Positions 20,494 through 29,856 of a stretch of DNA of 39,023 bases are shown here, piece by piece. Made by a program: the position numbers and the translations under genes. How positions within the stretch are numbered: the first letter of the stretch is position 1; each line of letters begins with the position of its first letter. Location of the stretch: IMG/VR virus record IMGVR_UViG_3300025138_005971, positions 1 to 39,023 of that record; one strand, 5' to 3'. The notes under the pieces were generated by a model. The model saw only the letters and a program-made list of their open reading frames with translations, was not told the DNA's origin and ran no database searches. The DNA comes from a virus.

Positions 20494-20844
20494 TTAGAAA
20501 GGTAATTCATCATTACTGTCTTCCAGTTCTGATGTTGTTCCTTCCCATAATTCTTGTGCGTATTTTTTTCCAAAATCAGATTTCATACCATAGTTTTCAA
20601 ACAATGCTTTTTCAGAACCAAATTTAGAATGTAATAAGTGGTGGTGGTGTAAACACAAAGGAATTGCATTTCGGTCGTCAGCTTTCATAGACATACCTCT
20701 TGTACCAGTCCAAGGTTTTAATAAATGATGTGCTTGTACTATTCTGTGATGTGATATAAAACCTGCCTTACAAATTGTGCAAGGCAAGGTTCTTACATAT
20801 GCGAGATGTTTTTGATCTCTAAAAGGGTGCTTTCGTTTCTTCAT
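20494..20844 (-). CDS. HNH endonuclease-like protein (Ref/DUF968-type)
   Basis: A 116-residue protein. 'LPCTICKAGF' supplies the first CxxC; 'QAHHLLKPWTGTRGMSMKADDRNAIPLC' carries HH and the D-D-N-A-x-P-L-C motif; 'LHHHHLLHSKFG' supplies the final zinc and catalytic His. This order is the HNH layout of P1 Ref and DUF968-like recombination nucleases ('aHH ... gmg-K-dD--hhPLC--HH---H'). It is encoded with an exonuclease and annealing-like protein, which fits a recombination or replication role. Overlaps the upstream gene by 26 bases. Confidence 0.75.
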   Translation of the reverse strand: MKKRKHPFRDQKHLAYVRTLPCTICKAGFISHHRIVQAHHLLKPWTGTRGMSMKADDRNAIPLCLHHHHLLHSKFGSEKALFENYGMKSDFGKKYAQELWEGTTSELEDSNDELPF

Positions 20845-21172
20845 CTAAAACTGGCATGAATGAACAACTTAAAAACTCATTGCCACTATCATGACCTATT
20901 TTGTTCCATGCACCAAACTTATAAGTCATTTCATCAAAATAAACACGACCACTAACATCGGGACTTTTTGGTGATTTTTTTTCACTTTCATTATGATGGT
21001 AAACAAGACCTGCACTTATCATAAGTTCATATTTTTCTTGTCCTTTATCATTTTCACTTTTTATAAGCACACCATATCTTTTAACTCCATTTATCATAAA
21101 GTTACCACGCTTAATTACATCTGACTTGCTTTCATTAAACAAAGCACCAGTTAAATTATTATCATATTCCAT
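20819..21172 (-). CDS. DUF736 / single-strand-binding-like protein
   Basis: A 117-residue protein beginning 'MEYDNNLTGALFNESKSDVI', then an OB-like region 'INGVKRYGVLIKSEND' and 'GRVYFDEMTYKFGAWNKIG' with 'NEFLSCSF'. The opening 'YDN--tGaLF-n--K' and the late 'aWnK-----feylS-sf' are typical of DUF736-like phage proteins often found next to recombination genes and suspected to bind single-stranded DNA. The insertion with 'EKKSPKSPDVSG' is unusual. Biochemical role is not shown. Confidence 0.55.
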   Translation of the reverse strand: MEYDNNLTGALFNESKSDVIKRGNFMINGVKRYGVLIKSENDKGQEKYELMISAGLVYHHNESEKKSPKSPDVSGRVYFDEMTYKFGAWNKIGHDSGNEFLSCSFMPVLDEETKAPF

Positions 21173-21176
21173 AGAT

Positions 21177-21437
21177 TTACTCCTTAATTATTAATCTATA
21201 TTTCCAACCATTACCATTCCAAAGTCTTTTCTTAATTACAATTTCATCTAGCGATGGCAAATCATATTTCACTCTAGCATAGTCTTTTCTTAAATTTCTA
21301 ATAGCTGCACTGATTGTTGGCTCGCCATAGAATTTACCTGTTTTTTCTTTTATGACACTTTGTAACTCCCAAAATGTCCACCATTTACCATTCCTCATGC
21401 AAACAAATACATAATCATCTAAACAACTAGGCTTCAT
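21177..21437 (-). CDS. Winged-helix-like small protein (86 aa)
   Basis: The protein reads 'DYVFVCMRNGKWWTFWELQSVIKEKTGKFYGEPTISAAIRNLRKDYARV' in parts: a first helix, 'KWWTFWELQSVI', then 'GEPTISAAIRNLRKDY', which looks like the recognition helix of a winged helix, and a wing ending 'GNGWKYRLI'. This pattern, with 'sis-aiR-LR' and a terminal 'yrl', is common in phage proteins that sense or bind DNA. Exact role unknown. It overlaps the upstream annealing-like gene by 11 bases. Confidence 0.55.
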   Translation of the reverse strand: MKPSCLDDYVFVCMRNGKWWTFWELQSVIKEKTGKFYGEPTISAAIRNLRKDYARVKYDLPSLDEIVIKKRLWNGNGWKYRLIIKE

Positions 21438-22107
21438 TATAAATTTCTAACAATTTATCATATGCTTCTTTTGTGCTGTTAGTTGATGCAATTTGTGCTT
21501 TGATAATAGTTTCTTTATTTAAAGTAAAAATTCTTTTGCATTCATCACTTTTTGGGTCAGCTAAAAATGTTCGCAAATGATGCAAGTATTTTTCTTCATC
21601 ATCAGTATTTATAACAACTGCTTTATTATCACTATGTATTTTATACTTACCCTTGCTCTTTACATCTTTAAATGCAGTAACTACTTTATCTGTTTCTTTT
21701 TTTGGTGCTTCGGCTTTATTATTAATTGCATTATCAACTTCAAAAGAACTAGCATATTCACCGCCACTTAAACCACAAGCTGCTAATGCTCTACCTATTG
21801 CACTAGTACAACAATTTTCTAAAGCTGATGTTTTGTTAACCATGCCCTCACCACGAAATTCTTCTGCATAGTCGCTGCCTAATACATGCCATTTAGCATC
21901 GTTAAACACGCTTACAGTTGCCTTAACAACAACTCTTTCAAGGTCATGGATAATTACTTTTGTTGTAATTCTAGCTGTATCTCCATATGCTTTTCTAAAA
22001 ATTTCTACTCTAGTTGCTACTTGGGTGTAATATTTACCTTTAATATTTACCTTATCTGATTTAGACAAATTTGCTATTTCATTAATTGCTTCATTCAATT
22101 TATTCAT
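21427..22107 (-). CDS. Single-strand annealing-like recombination protein (ERF/DUF1071-like)
   Basis: Start taken at the ATG ending at 22107 (MNKLNEAINEIANLSK), with GGAG six bases upstream and coupled to the exonuclease stop (TAATG); 226 residues. It has a beta core 'KGKYYTQVATRVEIFRKAYG', 'ITTKVIIHDLERVVVKATVSV' and then 'KTSALENCCTSAIGRALAACG' (residues about 113-133), the 'ETSAiGRALA' signature of phage annealing-type proteins. The C-terminal part is helical and charged. The pairing with a PD-(D/E)XK exonuclease directly upstream is the usual phage recombination pair, in which the annealing protein binds the single strands made by the nuclease. Confidence 0.7.
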   Translation of the reverse strand: MNKLNEAINEIANLSKSDKVNIKGKYYTQVATRVEIFRKAYGDTARITTKVIIHDLERVVVKATVSVFNDAKWHVLGSDYAEEFRGEGMVNKTSALENCCTSAIGRALAACGLSGGEYASSFEVDNAINNKAEAPKKETDKVVTAFKDVKSKGKYKIHSDNKAVVINTDDEEKYLHHLRTFLADPKSDECKRIFTLNKETIIKAQIASTNSTKEAYDKLLEIYNEA

Positions 22108-22880
22108 TATATTCTCCATAATTTTTTTGCTGCTTCTTTTTCTGCATATGACCATTTCCAATCATCAAAGTTTGGAAAAAATAAATCAGCAACAACATTA
22201 ATATCACTACTATAAGAAAGAACATTCATCATATTATTTGCCGCTCTTTCAACTTCTTTTAAATGCATATCTACATTAGAGACTGGTGTTGTAACAATTT
22301 GTTGTGTTGTGGTTGTTACATGAACATAATCAATTATCGGTACACATTTTTCGGCAGCTGCATATATGGCAAGTTGTCTACAAGTTGTATCAAGCATTTT
22401 TTTCTGCAACCTGTTTACAGTTTTTATATCACGAACCACCCCTTCATATTGGAGATCAAGGTAACCGATTATAGGAATGGGTAACCAGTCAAACTCCAAT
22501 TTGATTTTTTTTTGCGTAGCTATAGGCTCACCTAAACTTCTAAAGTGAGGAATTGCTATATCTACATAAGTATTTATTGTGTCTCTTTCTTTGCTTATTT
22601 TACTTGCATCAAAAGGTATTTTTTCTTGTTGTGCTTCTTCTAATTTATTATCAAAAACTTCTAGTGCAAATTTTTGCAGTTTTTTTATAGATTCATTATT
22701 GTATATGCCTTTGCATATAGCATCATCAACAGCTATTCCACGCCACATAGCGGGAGAACCAAAAGAATCACGAAAACCACTAGTGTGCAAAATCCACCTA
22801 GCAGGATTAGTTATAAATTCATTTATAGAACTGGCACTAAGATAAGTTATACCATGTTGTTCAAAGGGATTATTGTTCAT
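22107..22880 (-). CDS. PD-(D/E)XK recombination exonuclease (RecB/Cas4-like)
   Basis: A 257-residue nuclease. Start at the ATG ending at 22880 (MNNNPFEQHGITYLSASSIN); the longer frame has only rare codons before it. 'SASSINEFITNPARWIL' and 'RGIAVDDAI' (48-56) are the N-terminal elements. Catalytic residues are Asp142 (IIGYLDLQ), Asp151 and Lys153 (VRDIKT), and the QxxxY motif is Gln169 to Tyr173 (RQLAIYA). No iron-sulfur cysteines are seen. It should resect double-stranded ends for the annealing protein encoded next. A TATAAT box at 22907-22902 (reverse) gives a very short leader. Confidence 0.82.
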   Translation of the reverse strand: MNNNPFEQHGITYLSASSINEFITNPARWILHTSGFRDSFGSPAMWRGIAVDDAICKGIYNNESIKKLQKFALEVFDNKLEEAQQEKIPFDASKISKERDTINTYVDIAIPHFRSLGEPIATQKKIKLEFDWLPIPIIGYLDLQYEGVVRDIKTVNRLQKKMLDTTCRQLAIYAAAEKCVPIIDYVHVTTTTQQIVTTPVSNVDMHLKEVERAANNMMNVLSYSSDINVVADLFFPNFDDWKWSYAEKEAAKKLWRI

Positions 22881-22931
22881 ATTATTCCAAATTATTATCA
22901 AATTATATTAGTGATGATAAGACAAAATGGG

Positions 22932-23200: not shown

Positions 23201-23554
23201 ATGAGTATAGAAGCCCTAGGATGGTGTAAAAAACAAAGTTGCAATACGCCAAGCACAAAATTAGTATTATTTATTTTATCTAACTATGCAGATGAACAAC
23301 ATAGCTGCTACCCAAGCGAAAAACATTTAGGAAAAATATGCGGCATATCTGATAGACAGGTTCGCAGATGTTTAACTTGGCTACAAGAAAATAATAAATT
23401 AAGAATACAACACAGAAAAGGAACCAGTAACAGGTATTTTTTAAGTGTGGACACCAATGTCCTAACACTTAGGACGCCTGCTACCGCCTATACTAAAGAC
23501 ATACAAAAGAATAAGAACAAAAAAATAAGGAGTAAAAATGAACTTGCAGGTTAA
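23201..23554 (+). CDS. HTH_36-type replication initiation-like protein
   Basis: A 117-residue protein. The ATG at 23201 was chosen because it starts the family sequence 'MSIEALGWCKKQSCNTPSTK'. It continues 'LVLFILSNYADEQHSCYPSEKHLGKICGISDRQVRRCLTWLQE', a helix-turn-helix of the HTH_36 type used by phage O-like replication proteins to bind the origin. The C terminus is Lys/Asn-rich. Overlap of 17 bases with the primase-helicase gene fits a role in loading it. Origin repeats (iterons) were not found inside this gene. Confidence 0.75.
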   Translation: MSIEALGWCKKQSCNTPSTKLVLFILSNYADEQHSCYPSEKHLGKICGISDRQVRRCLTWLQENNKLRIQHRKGTSNRYFLSVDTNVLTLRTPATAYTKDIQKNKNKKIRSKNELAG

Positions 23555-25235
23555 ATTAAAAAACGAACATAATATTGATGCACACAGTCTTGATATTGGT
23601 TCACACAAAGTAAAATGTCCACAGTGTCAACCACCACATAATCCAAAAGATAGACCTTTATCATTAACTATAGAAAATGATACTGCTTTATGGTTGTGTC
23701 ATCATTGTAATTTTAGTGGCTCATTGCGGTTAAATGGTTACAAATCTAAACCAGTACAAAAAGTTGTACAAAAAGTTGTAAATTATGATGCAAGTGCAAA
23801 TGACTTTTTAGATAACTATTTTAGTAAGAGATCAATTAGTAGAGAAACATATCAGGCTTTTAACATTTTTTGCAAAGATGGTAAGTGGATTGGTTTTCCA
23901 TACAATGGTTTTAATAATAGATGCGATAATATTAAATTTAGAACTATTGATAAACAATTTAAACAAACACCAAAAGCTAAAAAAAGTTTGTACAACTATC
24001 ACCATGTTAAAGATGCACATGCTGTTATATTTGTGGAAGGTGAAATTGATGTACTTAGTTTATATGAAGTTGGTTTTAAAAATGTAACAACATTGCCCGA
24101 TGGTGCTCCACCAACAGTTGCATACAGAGAAAGCGATAAAAGATTTAGTTGTTTACAAACACACCCATTAAAAGCAAAAAAAATTATTCTGTTTGTAGAC
24201 TCCGATGGTGCAGGAGAAAATTTAAACAAAGAACTAGTTCATAGATATGGCAAAAAACTATGCTGGGTAGTACAAACACCTAAAGACTGTAAAGATGCAA
24301 ATGATGTTCTAGTTAAACATGGTGCAGCTACATTAAAAAATCTAGTAGATAGAGCTAGACCTTTGCCTGTAGATGGTTTGTATTCAGTAAATAGTTATAC
24401 CAAAGATGTTATTGATCTCTATAATGGTAATTATGATAAGCCATTAGAAATTGGTTATCCAAGTCTAGATAAATTATATAAAGTACAAAAAGGCACATTC
24501 CATGTTTGGACTGGCATACCTAATCATGGAAAAAGCACCTTTCTTGACCAAGTTTTAGTTAGAATAGCTAAACAACATGATTGGAGATTTGCCATGTTTT
24601 CTCCCGAGCATTCTACAAAAATGCATATTAGAAGATTATTACAAATTGTTGCAGAGAAACCATTTGATAAAGGATTTTCTACAAGAATGGATACTAGTGA
24701 ACTACATGCTTCATTAGAATGGATACATGAGCATTTTTATTTTATAGAAACAAGAGAACACATACCTAACATAGAAAAGATTTTAGATATTGCATCACAG
24801 TCTTGTGCAAAGTTTGGAATTAATGGTGTTGTAATAGACCCATTTAATGAAGTATCAGCAATTAGGAGAGGCAATCAAAGAGAAGATGAGCATATAAGAG
24901 ATTTTATATCTAGTTGTAAAAAGTTTGCAAGAAACCACGATGCTACAGTTTGGGTTGTGGCACACCCAACTAAAATGCAAAAAGATAACAGCGGCGGTTA
25001 CTCACCGCCAACAGCATATGATATTGCAGGTGCAAGTCATTGGCACAATCAAAGCGATGCTGTAGTTACTGTTCATAGAGATTTTGATGATGATACTGTG
25101 TCAATTATCACTCGCAAAATAAGAGAACAGGGATTGTATGGAAGCATAGGAGAAGCAAAATTTGAGTACGACCAAGCTAAAAGAATTTTTAAAGAACCAA
25201 CATTTAATTCTGATGTAAACTGGAATGAATTATGA
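23538..25235 (+). CDS. Primase-helicase (T7 gp4-like Toprim plus RecA-like helicase)
   Basis: A 565-residue replication enzyme, started at an ATG with AAGGAG. Residues 20-66 are a zinc-binding primase domain (Cys27, Cys30, Cys54, Cys57; 'CPQC' and 'CHHC'). The Toprim domain follows with 'VIFVEGEID' (163-171, Glu168) and 'ILFVDSDGAGEN' (217-228, Asp220 and Asp222). The helicase domain has Walker A 'GIPNHGKST' (326-334), Walker B 'VVIDP' (431-435), and 'VWVVAHPTKM' with a DnaB-like C terminus (ITRKIREQ). All three parts look intact. It unwinds DNA and lays primers, as in T7. Confidence 0.92.
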   Translation: MNLQVKLKNEHNIDAHSLDIGSHKVKCPQCQPPHNPKDRPLSLTIENDTALWLCHHCNFSGSLRLNGYKSKPVQKVVQKVVNYDASANDFLDNYFSKRSISRETYQAFNIFCKDGKWIGFPYNGFNNRCDNIKFRTIDKQFKQTPKAKKSLYNYHHVKDAHAVIFVEGEIDVLSLYEVGFKNVTTLPDGAPPTVAYRESDKRFSCLQTHPLKAKKIILFVDSDGAGENLNKELVHRYGKKLCWVVQTPKDCKDANDVLVKHGAATLKNLVDRARPLPVDGLYSVNSYTKDVIDLYNGNYDKPLEIGYPSLDKLYKVQKGTFHVWTGIPNHGKSTFLDQVLVRIAKQHDWRFAMFSPEHSTKMHIRRLLQIVAEKPFDKGFSTRMDTSELHASLEWIHEHFYFIETREHIPNIEKILDIASQSCAKFGINGVVIDPFNEVSAIRRGNQREDEHIRDFISSCKKFARNHDATVWVVAHPTKMQKDNSGGYSPPTAYDIAGASHWHNQSDAVVTVHRDFDDDTVSIITRKIREQGLYGSIGEAKFEYDQAKRIFKEPTFNSDVNWNEL

Positions 25236-25891
25236 TAGATGTAGAAAAAATTTATGACATGATTGCTGATGATTATGAAAATGATTATTCAGATGAAAGA
25301 GTTGGTAATTTAGTAGAAGCTGAAAATGCATTTATAAAAGAACTAATGCCATATAAAGGCAAGGGTAATTTAATTGATTGTGGATGTGGCACTGGTTTAT
25401 TACTTGATCTCATACAAATACATAAAAAAAATTATGTTGGTTTAGATATATCAAAAGGCATGTTAGATATAGCTGAAAAGAAAAATAAAGATTATTCATT
25501 TATCCACGAAGATGTTTTCACACATAAAAATAAATATGATTTTTGCATTTCTATGTTTGCAATTACAGATGTTTTTGGTACAAAAATGTTATCTAAGTCT
25601 GTAGAACTATTAAATAAAAATGGAATGTTTGTAGGAACATTTATAAACACAGATGGTCCTTATAAAAAGTTGCATTGTTTTGAAAAAAATGGAATTGATT
25701 TTAATCCTTTAACTTATACATATAGTGAAATTTGTAATGAACTGGTTAAAAATGGATTTGACTGGTATTATATTCTAGGAATAGCAAATATTAAAGATAG
25801 TGCAGATGTACAAACAATGACAAAAGAACTTTTAGATAAACGACACCTTTTAGCAAATGCTAAATATTATTTTGTAATGGCTCAAAAATGA
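25232..25891 (+). CDS. Class I SAM-dependent methyltransferase
   Basis: A 219-residue protein with the Rossmann-fold signature: motif I 'LIDCGCGTGLLLDLI' (about 47-61), acidic 'GLDIS' (motif II), 'HEDVF' and 'YDFCISMFAITDVF'. It is of the small-molecule or protein type (UbiE-like), because I see no DPPY or PCQ-type motif of DNA methyltransferases. The substrate is unknown. It is coupled to the primase-helicase (ATGA) and to the PAPS-reductase-like gene, so it may work with the latter in an unknown modification. Confidence 0.8.
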   Translation: MIDVEKIYDMIADDYENDYSDERVGNLVEAENAFIKELMPYKGKGNLIDCGCGTGLLLDLIQIHKKNYVGLDISKGMLDIAEKKNKDYSFIHEDVFTHKNKYDFCISMFAITDVFGTKMLSKSVELLNKNGMFVGTFINTDGPYKKLHCFEKNGIDFNPLTYTYSEICNELVKNGFDWYYILGIANIKDSADVQTMTKELLDKRHLLANAKYYFVMAQK

Positions 25892-27021
25892 AACTACATT
25901 TAAATATGAATGTTTTTGATGCTGCTTTAAATCGGCTACAAGAATTGTATGAACAAGACCATACTATTGTAATTTCACAAAGCGGCGGCAAAGACTCCAC
26001 AGTTTGTATGGAGTTAGCAATAATGGCAGCTGATGCTGCAGGAAAACTACCTATAAATGTTATACATCGTGATGAAGAAATTCTAATACCAAATACATAT
26101 GAGTATTTAGATAGAGTTGCAGCAAGACCTGAAGTGAACATGCATCATGTTTGGGCAGGACAACCAGTAGTAAATGTTTTTAATAGAAACAGTCCGTACT
26201 GGTGGATTTTTGATGAAACAATACCAAAAGAAGAATGGGTCAGACAACCGCCTGATTACGCTTATCAAATAGAAGAAAAAAATATTAATGCATTAGTAAC
26301 TAAAGAACGATTTCCTACAAAAGAAGGAAAAGATTTATTTGCTTGTATAGGATTGCGAGTACAAGAAAGTCCAAATAGAAGGATGGGTTTGTTTTCTAGT
26401 AAAGGTCATATTACAAAACCTAATGATAGAGGAACTAAATATGTGCGACCAATTTATGATTGGACAGATGGAGATGTTTGGAAAGCAATACAAGATTTTA
26501 AATGGGATTATAATCACGCTTATGATGTAATGGTTAAGCATGGGAGATCAAAAAATAAGCTAAGAATTGCACCACTGACAATGACTACAGCTGGAATACC
26601 CGACTTACAATTAATACAAAAAGCTTTTCCACAATTTTTTGATAAAGTCTGTCATAGATTAGATGGCATAAGAACAGTTACACAATTTGGTAAAATATCA
26701 TGTCAACCAACTAGAAAAACTGGCGAAACATGGGAGCAATGTTTTAGAAGAGAATGTATTGATGATGCACCCGCATGGATTGCTGAAAGAGCAGAGTTTG
26801 TTTATAAAAAACAATTAGAAGCACACATAAGAGCAAATGGAAATATACCATTCCCGCAAATAAATTCATTAAGAGCAAACCCTATAGGCTCGTATAAAAA
26901 ACTAGCAATGGCTTTATGGAATGGCGACCCTTTTGCATTAAAATGTAATATTTTAAAATATATGGAACCTGAAGAATTTAGGAAAGGTGCAGGATTTTGG
27001 GGTGGTAAGCCTACATTCTAA
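25888..27021 (+). CDS. PAPS-reductase-like (IbrA-type) protein
   Basis: A 377-residue ATP-pyrophosphatase-fold enzyme. The PP-loop 'SQSGGKDS' lies at 30-37 (Ser32, Gly33, Gly34, Lys35, Asp36, Ser37), followed by 'VIHRDEEILIPNTYEYLDR' and 'CIGLRVQESPNRR'. 'PIYDWTDGDVWKAIQDF' is the region that in PAPS-reductase relatives closes the active site. The long C terminus has Cys at 'CQPTRKTGETWEQCFRREC'. Relatives include IbrA and DndC-like proteins. It is followed by a small partner and then a ParB-like protein, recalling the IbrA-IbrB gene pair. The true substrate (sulfate transfer or adenylation of some target) is not known. Confidence 0.75.
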   Translation: MKLHLNMNVFDAALNRLQELYEQDHTIVISQSGGKDSTVCMELAIMAADAAGKLPINVIHRDEEILIPNTYEYLDRVAARPEVNMHHVWAGQPVVNVFNRNSPYWWIFDETIPKEEWVRQPPDYAYQIEEKNINALVTKERFPTKEGKDLFACIGLRVQESPNRRMGLFSSKGHITKPNDRGTKYVRPIYDWTDGDVWKAIQDFKWDYNHAYDVMVKHGRSKNKLRIAPLTMTTAGIPDLQLIQKAFPQFFDKVCHRLDGIRTVTQFGKISCQPTRKTGETWEQCFRRECIDDAPAWIAERAEFVYKKQLEAHIRANGNIPFPQINSLRANPIGSYKKLAMALWNGDPFALKCNILKYMEPEEFRKGAGFWGGKPTF

Positions 27022-27293
27022 TGTCAGATACAGACTGGAAAAGTCTAGAAGAGCATTGTGATTCTGTAAAATGGATTTGGGCAAAAACTTATGCAAAGAC
27101 AGCACCACATTGGTACATAAGATATAAAGAGCAGCCATATCTTTACGAAATTTTAAAACGCATGATAGAATTACATGGCGTAGAAGAAGAGTACACTAAT
27201 CATAATGGTAGAACTTATCCATGTGTTTATTTGTATTTAGGTAAATATAAATATTGGTATATGAATCCAGTAATAAATAAAGCGGAGAAATAG
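27021..27293 (+). CDS. Small partner protein between IbrA-like and ParB-like genes
   Basis: A 90-residue protein starting at the upstream stop (TAATG) and ending five bases before the ParB-like gene. It is strikingly aromatic (WIWAKTYAKTAPHWYIRYKE, then 'GRTYPCVYLYLGKYKYWYM') and ends in a beta-rich 'YxYLGKYKYW' segment. Small proteins of this kind accompany PAPS-reductase-like genes in phages. I do not recognise a domain with known function. A role as a third subunit of the modification complex is an inference from gene order alone. Confidence 0.6.
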   Translation: MSDTDWKSLEEHCDSVKWIWAKTYAKTAPHWYIRYKEQPYLYEILKRMIELHGVEEEYTNHNGRTYPCVYLYLGKYKYWYMNPVINKAEK

Positions 27294-27297
27294 TCAG

Positions 27298-28110
27298 ATG
27301 GCAAAATTTAAAGGTAAAGCACAGGTAGAAAAGAAAAATGCAGTTTTAAAGGCATTAGATGTTCAGTACATCACACATGATAAAATTGTTCCTAATACTT
27401 ATAATCCTAATAGACAATCAGAAGATGAATTTGAATTATTGAAAAGGTCAATGACTGAAGATGGATTTACTCAACCAATTGTTTGCGTAGAACATGAAAC
27501 AAAAGGCATGTATAGAATTGTAGATGGAGAACATAGATGGCGTTGTTCTAAAGAATTAGGATATGCAGAAATACCTATTGTAGTAACTCCTATGTCTATG
27601 GAGCAGGCTCGTATTGCAACATTAAGACATAATAGGGCTAGAGGGTCAGAAGATATTGAGCTCACAGCTAATGTCCTTAGAGATTTAGAATCACTTGGTG
27701 CTTTAGACTGGGCTCAAGATTCATTAATGATGGACGACCTTGAACTTCAAAGAATGTTAGAAGATATTCCTGCACCCGAAGCTATGGCAGGTGAAGAATG
27801 GAGTGGTGCATGGATACCATCAGATAATGATAGTGCAGAAGATGGAGTTGCAGGTGTTGAACATAAAACCAATGATGGAATAATGGTGAAATCATTGACA
27901 GTTGAGGCATTGAACAGACAAAGAGAAGTTGAAGCTATTGTAGCAAACGCTAAAACAGAAGAAGAAAGAAAAATGGCAGTCAAAGAAGCTAATTTTTATA
28001 GATTAAATTTAGTATTTAGTGGTGAAGAAGCAGATACAGTCAAAGAAGCATTAGGTGCAAATCCTGCTGAACAATTATTATCAATGTGTAATCAATTACT
28101 AGGTAATTAA
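27298..28110 (+). CDS. ParB-like (IbrB-type) nuclease-fold protein
   Basis: A 270-residue protein with an N-terminal ParB domain. 'YITHDKIVPNTYNPNRQSE' and 'LLKRSMTEDGFTQPIVC' precede the motif 'RIVDGEHRWR' (73-82), the 'GEHRWR' of ParB/Srx-fold ATPases. 'IPIVVTPMSMEQA' and a helical stretch (NRARGSEDIELTANVLRDLES) follow. The C-terminal half is acidic. It lacks the partition HTH typical of plasmid ParB, so it is more like IbrB or the ParB of phage modification modules. The ATG has GGAG upstream. Confidence 0.82.
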   Translation: MAKFKGKAQVEKKNAVLKALDVQYITHDKIVPNTYNPNRQSEDEFELLKRSMTEDGFTQPIVCVEHETKGMYRIVDGEHRWRCSKELGYAEIPIVVTPMSMEQARIATLRHNRARGSEDIELTANVLRDLESLGALDWAQDSLMMDDLELQRMLEDIPAPEAMAGEEWSGAWIPSDNDSAEDGVAGVEHKTNDGIMVKSLTVEALNRQREVEAIVANAKTEEERKMAVKEANFYRLNLVFSGEEADTVKEALGANPAEQLLSMCNQLLGN

Positions 28111-28318: not shown

Positions 28319-28801
28319 TTATATATTTGTCTGACTATATGAATCTTTTACTGCATACATTAATGTATCGGTATCAATACCAAAATCATCATAACCTTGT
28401 GCAATACCTTCCAAGTATCTGCTTGATGGTGGATACACATCTTTGCTATTCATTATGTAAACCATAACTTTATCAGTACCAAACTTTTCTTTTAGAGCGG
28501 GTATAGTCAAAACTTGTTTACGATATAAACTAGGATACCCTTCATATATATCTAACCTTTGCTCACAGGCATCTGTAATTTTCCATAATGCTAATGGCAC
28601 TGTCGCATCTTTAGCATGCTCTATGTCTGCAACACCTCTAAATTTAAGAGAGAAGCCATCAACAAAAACACTTCCAACTGGTTTTGCATATGGGCATCTT
28701 GAAGACATTTGCATTAAGTTCATATTGCTTCCATAAGCACCATACAAATATTGCACAGTCTTAGTAGGCTTGGTTTTAAATTTTAGAATATTTTTTTTCA
28801 T
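28319..28801 (-). CDS. Gamma-glutamylcyclotransferase (GGCT/AIG2-like)
   Basis: A 160-residue protein. 'YLYGAYGSNMNL' (18-29) is the GGCT substrate-binding 'Y-aYGSNm' motif. 'DGFSLKFRGVADIEHAKDATV' and 'ALWKITDACEQRLDIYEGYPSLYRK' (71-95) follow, with Glu87 in the position of the catalytic acid of the family. The terminal part carries the 'Y-----sR-Yl--i--G' pattern. Members release 5-oxoproline from gamma-glutamyl amines or peptides. It follows the amidoligase in one operon, so it probably trims or reverses amide bonds made by that enzyme. AGGAG precedes the ATG. Confidence 0.82.
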   Translation of the reverse strand: MKKNILKFKTKPTKTVQYLYGAYGSNMNLMQMSSRCPYAKPVGSVFVDGFSLKFRGVADIEHAKDATVPLALWKITDACEQRLDIYEGYPSLYRKQVLTIPALKEKFGTDKVMVYIMNSKDVYPPSSRYLEGIAQGYDDFGIDTDTLMYAVKDSYSQTNI

Positions 28802-28815
28802 AGTTTCTCCTTGTA

Positions 28816-29856
28816 TTAATTTAATTCTAATTCTCTTTCATGGTAAAAAGATTGCACTTTACTATCACAACCATCTAACCAACCACTGTCTGTTTCACCA
28901 GTATTTTCTGCAATAGGTCTGTTTAAGTTTGCATCGTCATAAAAAGATAAGATATCTCTATCTCTTAACAAATCAACTAACAAACATTTATCTATAGAAG
29001 ATTCTCTGCTTCCAGTATATAAACTATTTAATAAATGATTACTCATGTATGTATGATAAGAACCATCAGTTTTATTTATATTCCACTGGCTATCACCCCT
29101 GCTCCACTCCATAGTGAACCCTGCATTTTCAACTGCATTTCTAACTGTAGAGTAAACTCTGTTAGTTTTAGGTGACTTAGTAATTGCTGAAAGCTTTGTA
29201 CTTTTTTCTACAAAAGCCATTAAGAAGCTAACCCAATTAATAATCTTTGCAAAATTAAGAGTACCGCTATGTTGTCTGAACTCCATAGTTCCATATCTAG
29301 TTAAACTTTGTAAATTAACTTTATAGTATCTACCTGCTGCATTAGCTAAACCTCTTTTACTTTTACTTCTAACATTTTTAATTCTGCTAGCAGTATTAGT
29401 AACACTAGAACACCATCTAGAATTATTACCCCTTCTGCTTCTAGGCATAATCATATCTATTTGGCTTTCATAGTCAGCATACCTTTCATATACAGTTTGT
29501 ATTTGTGCAACTGTGAGATCATTAACATCAACATGAACATGCAATCCACACTGCACATTAACGCTAATACCTTCTAAGTTATCTAGGGCATCTAGTATAA
29601 TTTCTAATTGCTTAGCACCCTCAACACCTTTAAGAATTGGACTAACGATTTCACCACCAGTTCCATCTAAAGAAGCATCTGTAACAATCTTCCAGTATGG
29701 TCTAGTAGTATGATGATACCCTTCAAAGTAACATTCTATACCATCAAGGTTATTAATGGTCTCTGCAACAGTTCTAGGTGTAACTCCTACAAACTCTAAC
29801 TCAACACCATAGGTCCTGTTAGTTAATGTAGGGTAGTTGTTATTTAAGTTATTCAA
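28816..29856 (-). CDS. Amidoligase-type (COOH-NH2 ligase) enzyme, TTG start
   Basis: A 346-residue protein. The start codon is TTG at 29856-29854, preceded by AAGGAG six bases upstream, and no ATG is near. Motifs of the glutamine-synthetase-like amidoligase family are in order: 'YGVELEFVG' (16-24), 'WKIVTDASLDGTGGEIVSP' (55-73), 'CGLHVHVDV' (103-111) and 'YGTMEFRQHSGTLN' (188-201). These enzymes join carboxylates to amines with ATP, giving peptide-like products. Phages often carry amidoligase next to GGCT-like enzymes, as here. The target, perhaps wall peptide or a host protein, is unknown. Confidence 0.85.
   Translation of the reverse strand: MNNLNNNYPTLTNRTYGVELEFVGVTPRTVAETINNLDGIECYFEGYHHTTRPYWKIVTDASLDGTGGEIVSPILKGVEGAKQLEIILDALDNLEGISVNVQCGLHVHVDVNDLTVAQIQTVYERYADYESQIDMIMPRSRRGNNSRWCSSVTNTASRIKNVRSKSKRGLANAAGRYYKVNLQSLTRYGTMEFRQHSGTLNFAKIINWVSFLMAFVEKSTKLSAITKSPKTNRVYSTVRNAVENAGFTMEWSRGDSQWNINKTDGSYHTYMSNHLLNSLYTGSRESSIDKCLLVDLLRDRDILSFYDDANLNRPIAENTGETDSGWLDGCDSKVQSFYHERELELN

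Follow-up and report, generated by a model that had tools for sequence, protein, structure and literature searches.

A conserved IbrA–IbrB gene pair in a tailed-phage genome, its separation from the genome's GAGATC pattern and a possible role in DNA or nucleotide modification

We analyzed a 39,023-base virus record (IMGVR_UViG_3300025138_005971 from IMG/VR; the whole stretch is called the window below), in which a four-gene module occupies positions 25232–28110 of the plus strand, directly 3′ of a primase-helicase gene (Table 1). Judged by sequence comparison, the core of this module is a real IbrA–IbrB pair (families phrog_2302 and phrog_2159), and one clade of tailed phages has conserved the IbrA–IbrB unit within its replication gene string. 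Our favored reading, to which we give somewhat less than an even chance, is that the unit modifies DNA or nucleotides rather than serving in sulfate assimilation, DNA phosphorothioation or partition.

An IbrA–IbrB pair in the replication gene string

The phrog_2302 match of the IbrA-like protein spans residues 4–285, and the protein is 25% identical to IbrA of Escherichia phage PhiR5_2 over 383 alignment columns (E = 3e-19), while its ParB-like partner is 36% identical to IbrB of the same phage over 160 (E = 4e-24). Together with common motifs and a steady neighborhood, these matches bear out the likeness to IbrA–IbrB that had been proposed in an earlier note made from the sequence alone. Like the pair found in Escherichia coli prophages and PhiR5_2, the window encodes adjoining PP-loop and ParB-like proteins, with the motifs SGGKDS and GxRxxES in IbrA and YNPN, DGxHR and NRAxG in IbrB. 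It differs from the E. coli pair in four respects: the absence of DUF3440, a C-terminal extension of IbrB, the added methyltransferase and 90-amino-acid (90-aa) protein, and the gene setting. Pfam searches up to an E-value of 0.1 found only PF01507 in the window IbrA, which places it in the wider pair rather than in the DUF3440 subgroup; DUF3440 is present in locus L078. Eleven aligned IbrB proteins have YNPN, DG-x-HR and T-x-x-NR in common, and among them the extension of the window protein is matched at length only by that of L057. By description alone, the pair can also be likened to the chromosomal YbdN–YbdM of E. coli K-12, which excerpts of PMC9068703 give as a phosphoadenosine phosphosulfate (PAPS) reductase/DUF3440 protein (YbdN, b0602) and a ParB-like protein (YbdM, b0601).

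The two genes keep close company elsewhere. In a sample of 20 IbrA loci (11 isolated phages and nine viral contigs, five of the latter close to each other), 19 had an IbrB-type gene no more than 1.5 kb from IbrA on the same strand, as had 12 of the 13 that remained once the seven loci that had supplied ParB query proteins were set aside. The sole exception was Microbacterium phage Leaf, whose record ends with IbrA; the record of its relative Rasputia closes with IbrA too and opens with a ParB gene. As a separate observation, the Leaf string that the IbrA-like gene ends (L024, 1–5160) is annotated as two glycosyltransferases, an acetyltransferase and a methyltransferase and resembles a modification cluster; Pfam gave no family for its annotated methyltransferase. 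Terminase or portal genes were nearby in five of 12 contexts (FCL-2, PJN03, Rita1961, Kovu and the window). Matches to the window IbrA occurred in 215 of 50,697 phage records, many of which name the product PAPS reductase, and DNA of the PhiR5_2-type pair was covered to at least 80% in 1,848 of 5,426 E. coli genomes, annotated among the matches listed as phosphoadenosine phosphosulfate reductase and IbrB-like protein. A bacterial genome scan based on the IbrA alignment turned up no relative. The window is a further member of a widespread, poorly understood type of IbrA–IbrB pair, and the family occurs in phages whose laboratory hosts are easily grown, among them Rita1961 of Mycobacterium smegmatis and D4276 of Streptococcus thermophilus.

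Within the module, the four reading frames lie exactly as the earlier note had described, coupled behind the primase-helicase. The primase-helicase stop and the methyltransferase start overlap by 4 nt, as do the methyltransferase and IbrA genes; IbrA and the 90-aa gene overlap by 1 nt, and a 4-nt gap separates the latter from the ParB-like gene. Over the stretches covered by their contigs, 18 related viral loci kept one gene order, which runs from a PD-(D/E)XK nuclease and two small genes through the primase-helicase, methyltransferase, IbrA, small protein and ParB to a gamma-glutamyl cyclotransferase-like gene, an amidoligase and the terminase genes. The methyltransferase was found in all 18 relatives (partial in L013), ParB in all 17 whose contigs reach its position (partial in L013 and L018) and the 90-aa protein in 15 of the 17 reaching it, L014 and L015 being the two in which it was not found.

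Table 1 Genes of the module and the adjoining primase-helicase in the window
Feature	Position	Strand	Family evidence
Primase-helicase	23538–25235	+	DnaB_C, Toprim (Pfam); phrog_239, E = 1.8e-77
Class I S-adenosylmethionine (SAM) methyltransferase, 219 aa	25232–25891	+	PF13649/PF08241
IbrA-like PP-loop protein, 377 aa	25888–27021	+	PF01507, E = 1.7e-13; phrog_2302, E = 6.9e-58
Small protein, 90 aa, no accepted family	27021–27293	+	No match over curated cut-off
IbrB-type ParB/Srx-fold protein, 270 aa	27298–28110	+	PF02195, E = 1e-15; phrog_2159, E = 3.7e-36

Comparison of the window with L002 gave ratios of nonsynonymous to synonymous change (dN/dS) of 0.039 for IbrA, 0.057 for the ParB-like gene, 0.046 for the primase-helicase, 0.081 for TerL and 0.207 for the methyltransferase (values of 0.21 and 0.17 were recorded for this last gene), all of them rough, as the proportion of synonymous differences is high (pS, 0.36–0.59). 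Such low ratios place IbrA–IbrB under strong purifying selection, with the methyltransferase as the looser part. IbrA and IbrB are constrained about as much as primase and terminase, and the methyltransferase is fast-evolving and is replaced in relatives.

The slot behind the primase-helicase is filled in L078, L087 and L174 by ParB1, a cupin-like protein, IbrA and ParB2 (IbrB), and L181 holds the same version, with ParB1 and the primase portion lying beyond the contig start. In L080 the same slot holds ParB1, IbrA, ParB2 (IbrB) and another methyltransferase, whose family (phrog_11826) is that of the methyltransferase adjoining IbrA in Bacillus phage 035JT001. Gene identities in L087, L174 and L181 rest on likeness to L078, where Pfam matches were just under the cut-off (ParB1, E = 1.8e-5; cupin, 4e-6; IbrB, 3.8e-5) and PHROGs matches were good (ParB1 to phrog_620, E = 1.6e-38; IbrB to phrog_2159, E = 9e-58). 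In L057 and L058, other open reading frames (ORFs), which were called mechanically, separate IbrA from ParB. The cassettes of L078, L087 and L174 and the ParB–IbrA–methyltransferase arrangement of 035JT001 have the IbrA–IbrB core in common with the window and differ in their third genes, and the system looks like a fixed core with changing third genes.

The GAGATC pattern and its relation to the module

The earlier note had remarked on a GATC/GAGATC pattern in this genome and had tentatively tied it to the module. The pattern itself is real: GATC occurs 30 times in the window against about 109 expected, and all 30 copies lie inside GAGATC/GATCTC. These sites run from 839 to 39009 (18 and 12 by strand); other lineages would lead one to expect 8.1 of them. 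They are spaced (mean, 1,316; coefficient of variation (CV), 0.40) more evenly than any other of 546 hexamers with 20–45 copies, an evenness that was reached in none of 20,000 uniform draws. For the relatives, equally large sets of draws were as even 14 times for G001, 70 times for G003, 24 times for G004, never for G015 and 3,006 times for G017, whose 12 sites are not significantly even. The base following the motif was A at 24 of 29 window sites and T at 26 of 44 sites in G015.

Whether the pattern follows the module was judged on 73 contigs, drawn from 131 loci within the identity limits after 58 near-duplicates had been dropped. Six of the 20 contigs with a close module had more than three-quarters of their GATC in GAGATC and 14 did not, and GATC was below 0.35 of expectation in nine of the 18 that were long enough to judge. 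Contigs with a distant module showed neither trait (GAGATC exclusivity, 0 of 9; GATC depletion, 0 of 8). In contigs with primase and terminase both in view and no module, exclusivity occurred in none of 21 and depletion in four of 21, two of these at 0.04 of expectation; since such loci extend no further than 10 kb to either side of the query gene, a module could lie elsewhere. The remaining 23 contigs were undecidable, with GAGATC in one (L061, cut before IbrA) and depletion in five of 20. The comparison of GATC bias with the module in relatives, which the earlier note had suggested as a check, showed GATC depletion without the module, the outcome that the note itself had named as refuting its idea; in favor of the note, exclusivity never occurred in a module-less relative, and every GAGATC contig reaching the module position has the module.

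A second GAGATC lineage consists of G015 (loci L048 and L049) and its near relative G017 (L053). The IbrA, ParB and methyltransferase of G015 reached 0.87, 0.91 and 0.52 of self score against pattern-negative lineages and 0.81, 0.83 and 0.31 against the window's lineage; a few G015 genes elsewhere were closest to the window's lineage, some of them by small margins. With 14 of 20 close-module contigs free of the pattern and the G015 module nearest to pattern-negative lineages, the proposed link did not survive and was rejected. This mismatch indicates that the GAGATC pattern is not set by the module alone. A host factor might lie behind it, although this is a guess, and the pattern, now separated from the module, needs its own explanation.

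No convincing phage gene was confined to GAGATC contigs among ORFs of at least 45 aa from G015, the window and G001. Three ORFs matched both GAGATC lineages but none of the 17 pattern-negative contigs, namely two from G015 (26% and 30% matches in G001; no Pfam family) and a 57-aa ORF of the window. Even, lineage-enriched hexamers at p < 0.005 were absent from G013, G009, G011, G010, G008, G007, L068 and G016, and G009 had one even, lineage-enriched 7-mer at a p value uncorrected for the number of candidates. Also at uncorrected p values, L188, which has no module in view, carries the enriched and evenly spaced hexamer CTGTAC (23 versus 8.3; CV, 0.50), and other module-less contigs gave one hexamer with eight copies (L089) or one hexamer with nine copies and two 7-mers with 10 copies (L182). 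Among the titles listed for GAGATC with phage and restriction, none looked related, and the one paper found on evenly spaced GATC in phage genomes was unrelated to judge by its abstract. Phage motifs tied to nicks, in excerpts of PMC11780129, are one-stranded and unevenly spread and hence different from the GAGATC pattern.

Conserved residues and candidate functions

SGGKDS was kept in all 21 IbrA proteins compared, along with several acidic, arginine and tyrosine positions, and no cysteine was common to all 21, the best alignment column reaching 12. The IbrA proteins of Leaf (471 aa) and 035JT001 (374 aa) each have a single cysteine, which excludes a two-cysteine relay in them irrespective of alignment. 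The missing common cysteine and the steady IbrB partner suggest that the IbrA family does something other than sulfur metabolism. Excerpts of PMC11437467 likewise hold that PAPS reductase homologs of phages and mobile elements may act beyond it; phage genes bearing this name are common and easily taken for sulfur-metabolism genes. The predicted structure of the window IbrA was poor (mean predicted local distance difference test (pLDDT), 53).

DNA methyltransferases carry a motif IV of the form [NDS]PP[YFWH] or PC. Among 12 methyltransferases of the clade, the first form was found in none and the PC dipeptide in one, and the window protein has neither; a non-DNA type is supported by these sequences, in keeping with the small-molecule type that the earlier note had suggested. 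Its best solved relatives are a mixed class I set, many of them small-molecule and some RNA or protein methyltransferases. The 90-aa protein has a confidently predicted fold (mean pLDDT, 92.5), for which Foldseek returned no convincing match (best E = 0.75 in PDB and 0.29 in the viral library). It was not found in phage records or in nine viral contigs with a distant IbrA, the latter negative being weak. Resemblances of this protein to an Fe(II)/2-oxoglutarate enzyme (VIA-align best Z, 3.8; root-mean-square deviation, 3.6 over 74 residues) and, in the same direction, to Tet_JBP (Pfam E = 0.047, below cut-off) were treated as chance.

Under the favored reading, IbrA would be a cysteine-independent ATP-pyrophosphatase that converts ATP to AMP and pyrophosphate and adenylylates its target without cysteine-borne sulfur; IbrB, with its ParB/Srx fold, would handle a nucleotide and hold the substrate, and an exchangeable third enzyme would finish the product. 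The coupling of the unit to the primase-helicase and its position near terminase in several phages make phage DNA or its nucleotide precursors the most likely target, and a DNA modification other than phosphorothioation is possible. An analogy for such a working mode is provided by DpdA–DpdB of 7-deazaguanine DNA modification, in which, according to excerpts of PMC12839542, the ParB-like ATPase DpdB works with a base-inserting enzyme. The window differs in having a PP-loop enzyme and no TGT-like DpdA among the 20 ORFs scanned with Pfam. The same excerpts describe ParB/Srx proteins that nick DNA under ATP control, and those of PMC12783734 place ParB-domain proteins of unknown role in contigs with a phage cytosine-modifying enzyme. 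Among the listings and excerpts that the literature search covered, no publication linked IbrA–IbrB to DNA modification.

A broader version, which we consider doubtful, makes the pair a general two-part engine of DNA or nucleotide hypermodification, with IbrA adenylylating a base, IbrB presenting it and the third enzyme completing the group. If this were true, the methyltransferase, the cupin-like protein and the annotated acetyltransferase would be third enzymes, the genes recorded as PAPS reductase in many phages would be misnamed modification enzymes, and the GAGATC pattern would stand apart as a trait of its own, driven perhaps by the host.

Several points weigh against a modifying role. 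The E. coli pair has been ascribed a co-activator role for prophage genes, for which DNA need not be modified. The coupling to the primase-helicase might reflect nothing more than gene packing, and 21 of 73 contigs sharing the terminase type had no module in view, implying that not all relatives need it. C40, C153, C285 and C290 are invariant in 13 aligned close IbrA sequences (window included), and the C285-x4-C290 spacing recurs in L057 and L058; a thiol role is therefore possible within the window lineage. The roughness of the dN/dS values counts on the same side.

The main rival gives IbrA–IbrB a regulatory task, the activation of phage genes, with the ParB-like protein binding DNA and IbrA modifying a regulator or sensing a nucleotide, which we hold to be possible but on the whole not probable. 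A sequence-record note on the E. coli pair reads 'Co-activator of prophage gene expression', a table note in PMC4490671 gives it this role, and antirepressor genes adjoin that pair; in the window, one of the two small genes immediately upstream of the primase-helicase has an HTH_36 domain. In the window clade, however, the pair is coupled to replication genes, and Pfam gave no helix–turn–helix (HTH) match for the ParB-like protein. The finding that the methyltransferase is not of a DNA type would also suit an anti-defense or nucleotide-metabolism unit, altering a host alarm nucleotide or the nucleotide pool instead of DNA, as would the capacity of ParB-superfamily proteins to be nucleoside triphosphate-consuming enzymes (excerpts of PMC10853773 and PMC12839542). 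We regard this as unlikely, since strong constraint and constant presence in the close clade better fit a standing role.

The remaining readings fare worse. The earlier note had raised a DndC-like route to phosphorothioation, and the window IbrA does have a short PP-loop match in common with DndC, SspD and BrxP (DndC in PADLOC, E = 1.5e-6). A scheme in which IbrA takes the part of DndC and the DNA is sulfur-modified at GAGATC could further draw on the reality of the pattern, on the four cysteines conserved in the close clade and on the fact that, apart from one contig cut before the module, GAGATC exclusivity was confined to contigs bearing the module. The DndC match is nevertheless limited to residues 7–48, with no full-length match (TIGR03183, 19.8 bits versus a cut-off of 290.4), and the cysteine dyad that marks DndC in excerpts of PMC10853773 is not family-wide, as no cysteine is common to the 21 proteins. 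Of the Dnd and Ssp components, as set out in excerpts of PMC12707154, none of DndA, DndD, DndE, SspB and SspC had a PADLOC match in the 14 window ORFs scanned, confirming for these ORFs the lack of Dnd partners already remarked in the earlier note, and the pattern is not tied to the module. Phosphorothioation by the module is unlikely, and the DndC-like scheme at GAGATC is very improbable. An auxiliary sulfate-assimilation gene, a cysH-like PAPS reductase strengthening the sulfur metabolism of the host, as the name in many phage records and in PHROGs has it, seems just as implausible given a CysH model score of 15.2 bits against a cut-off of 165.1 (TIGR00434, NCBIfam), the lack of a common cysteine and the steady IbrB partner. 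We see least prospect in a plasmid-like partition role for the ParB-like protein, to which IbrA would be a bystander: the ParB_N domain and the PHROG name 'ParB-like partition protein' suggest it, but the protein has only PF02195 and no HTH, Pfam scans of 20 window ORFs revealed no ParA, a Noc alignment places RHNR at the ENLQ box, and the IbrA partner is steady.

Neighboring genes, base composition and host

Between the module and the terminase, the minus strand of the window (28319–29856) carries the gamma-glutamyl cyclotransferase-like gene and the amidoligase gene, which are kept in close relatives; similar genes lie 3′ of some distant IbrA cassettes. On the other side, the minus strand at 20819–22901 holds the PD-(D/E)XK nuclease, a gene that positionally matches the ERF-type recombinase of G015 and a weakly SSB-like gene, together resembling a recombination set.

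The closest isolate matches point to no single host, with TerL 49% identical to that of a Microcystis phage and 47% to that of a Roseobacter phage and the capsid 50% to that of a Rhizobium phage. Short palindromes are broadly avoided in the window: TCGA, ACGT and GGCC are all absent (about 37, 21 and 16 expected), and GCGC occurs once against 27 expected. CCAG is depleted in the window, L003, L031–L034 and L054, yet the window's lineage has more CCAGC than other lineages would predict (138 versus 19), with uneven spacing in the window.

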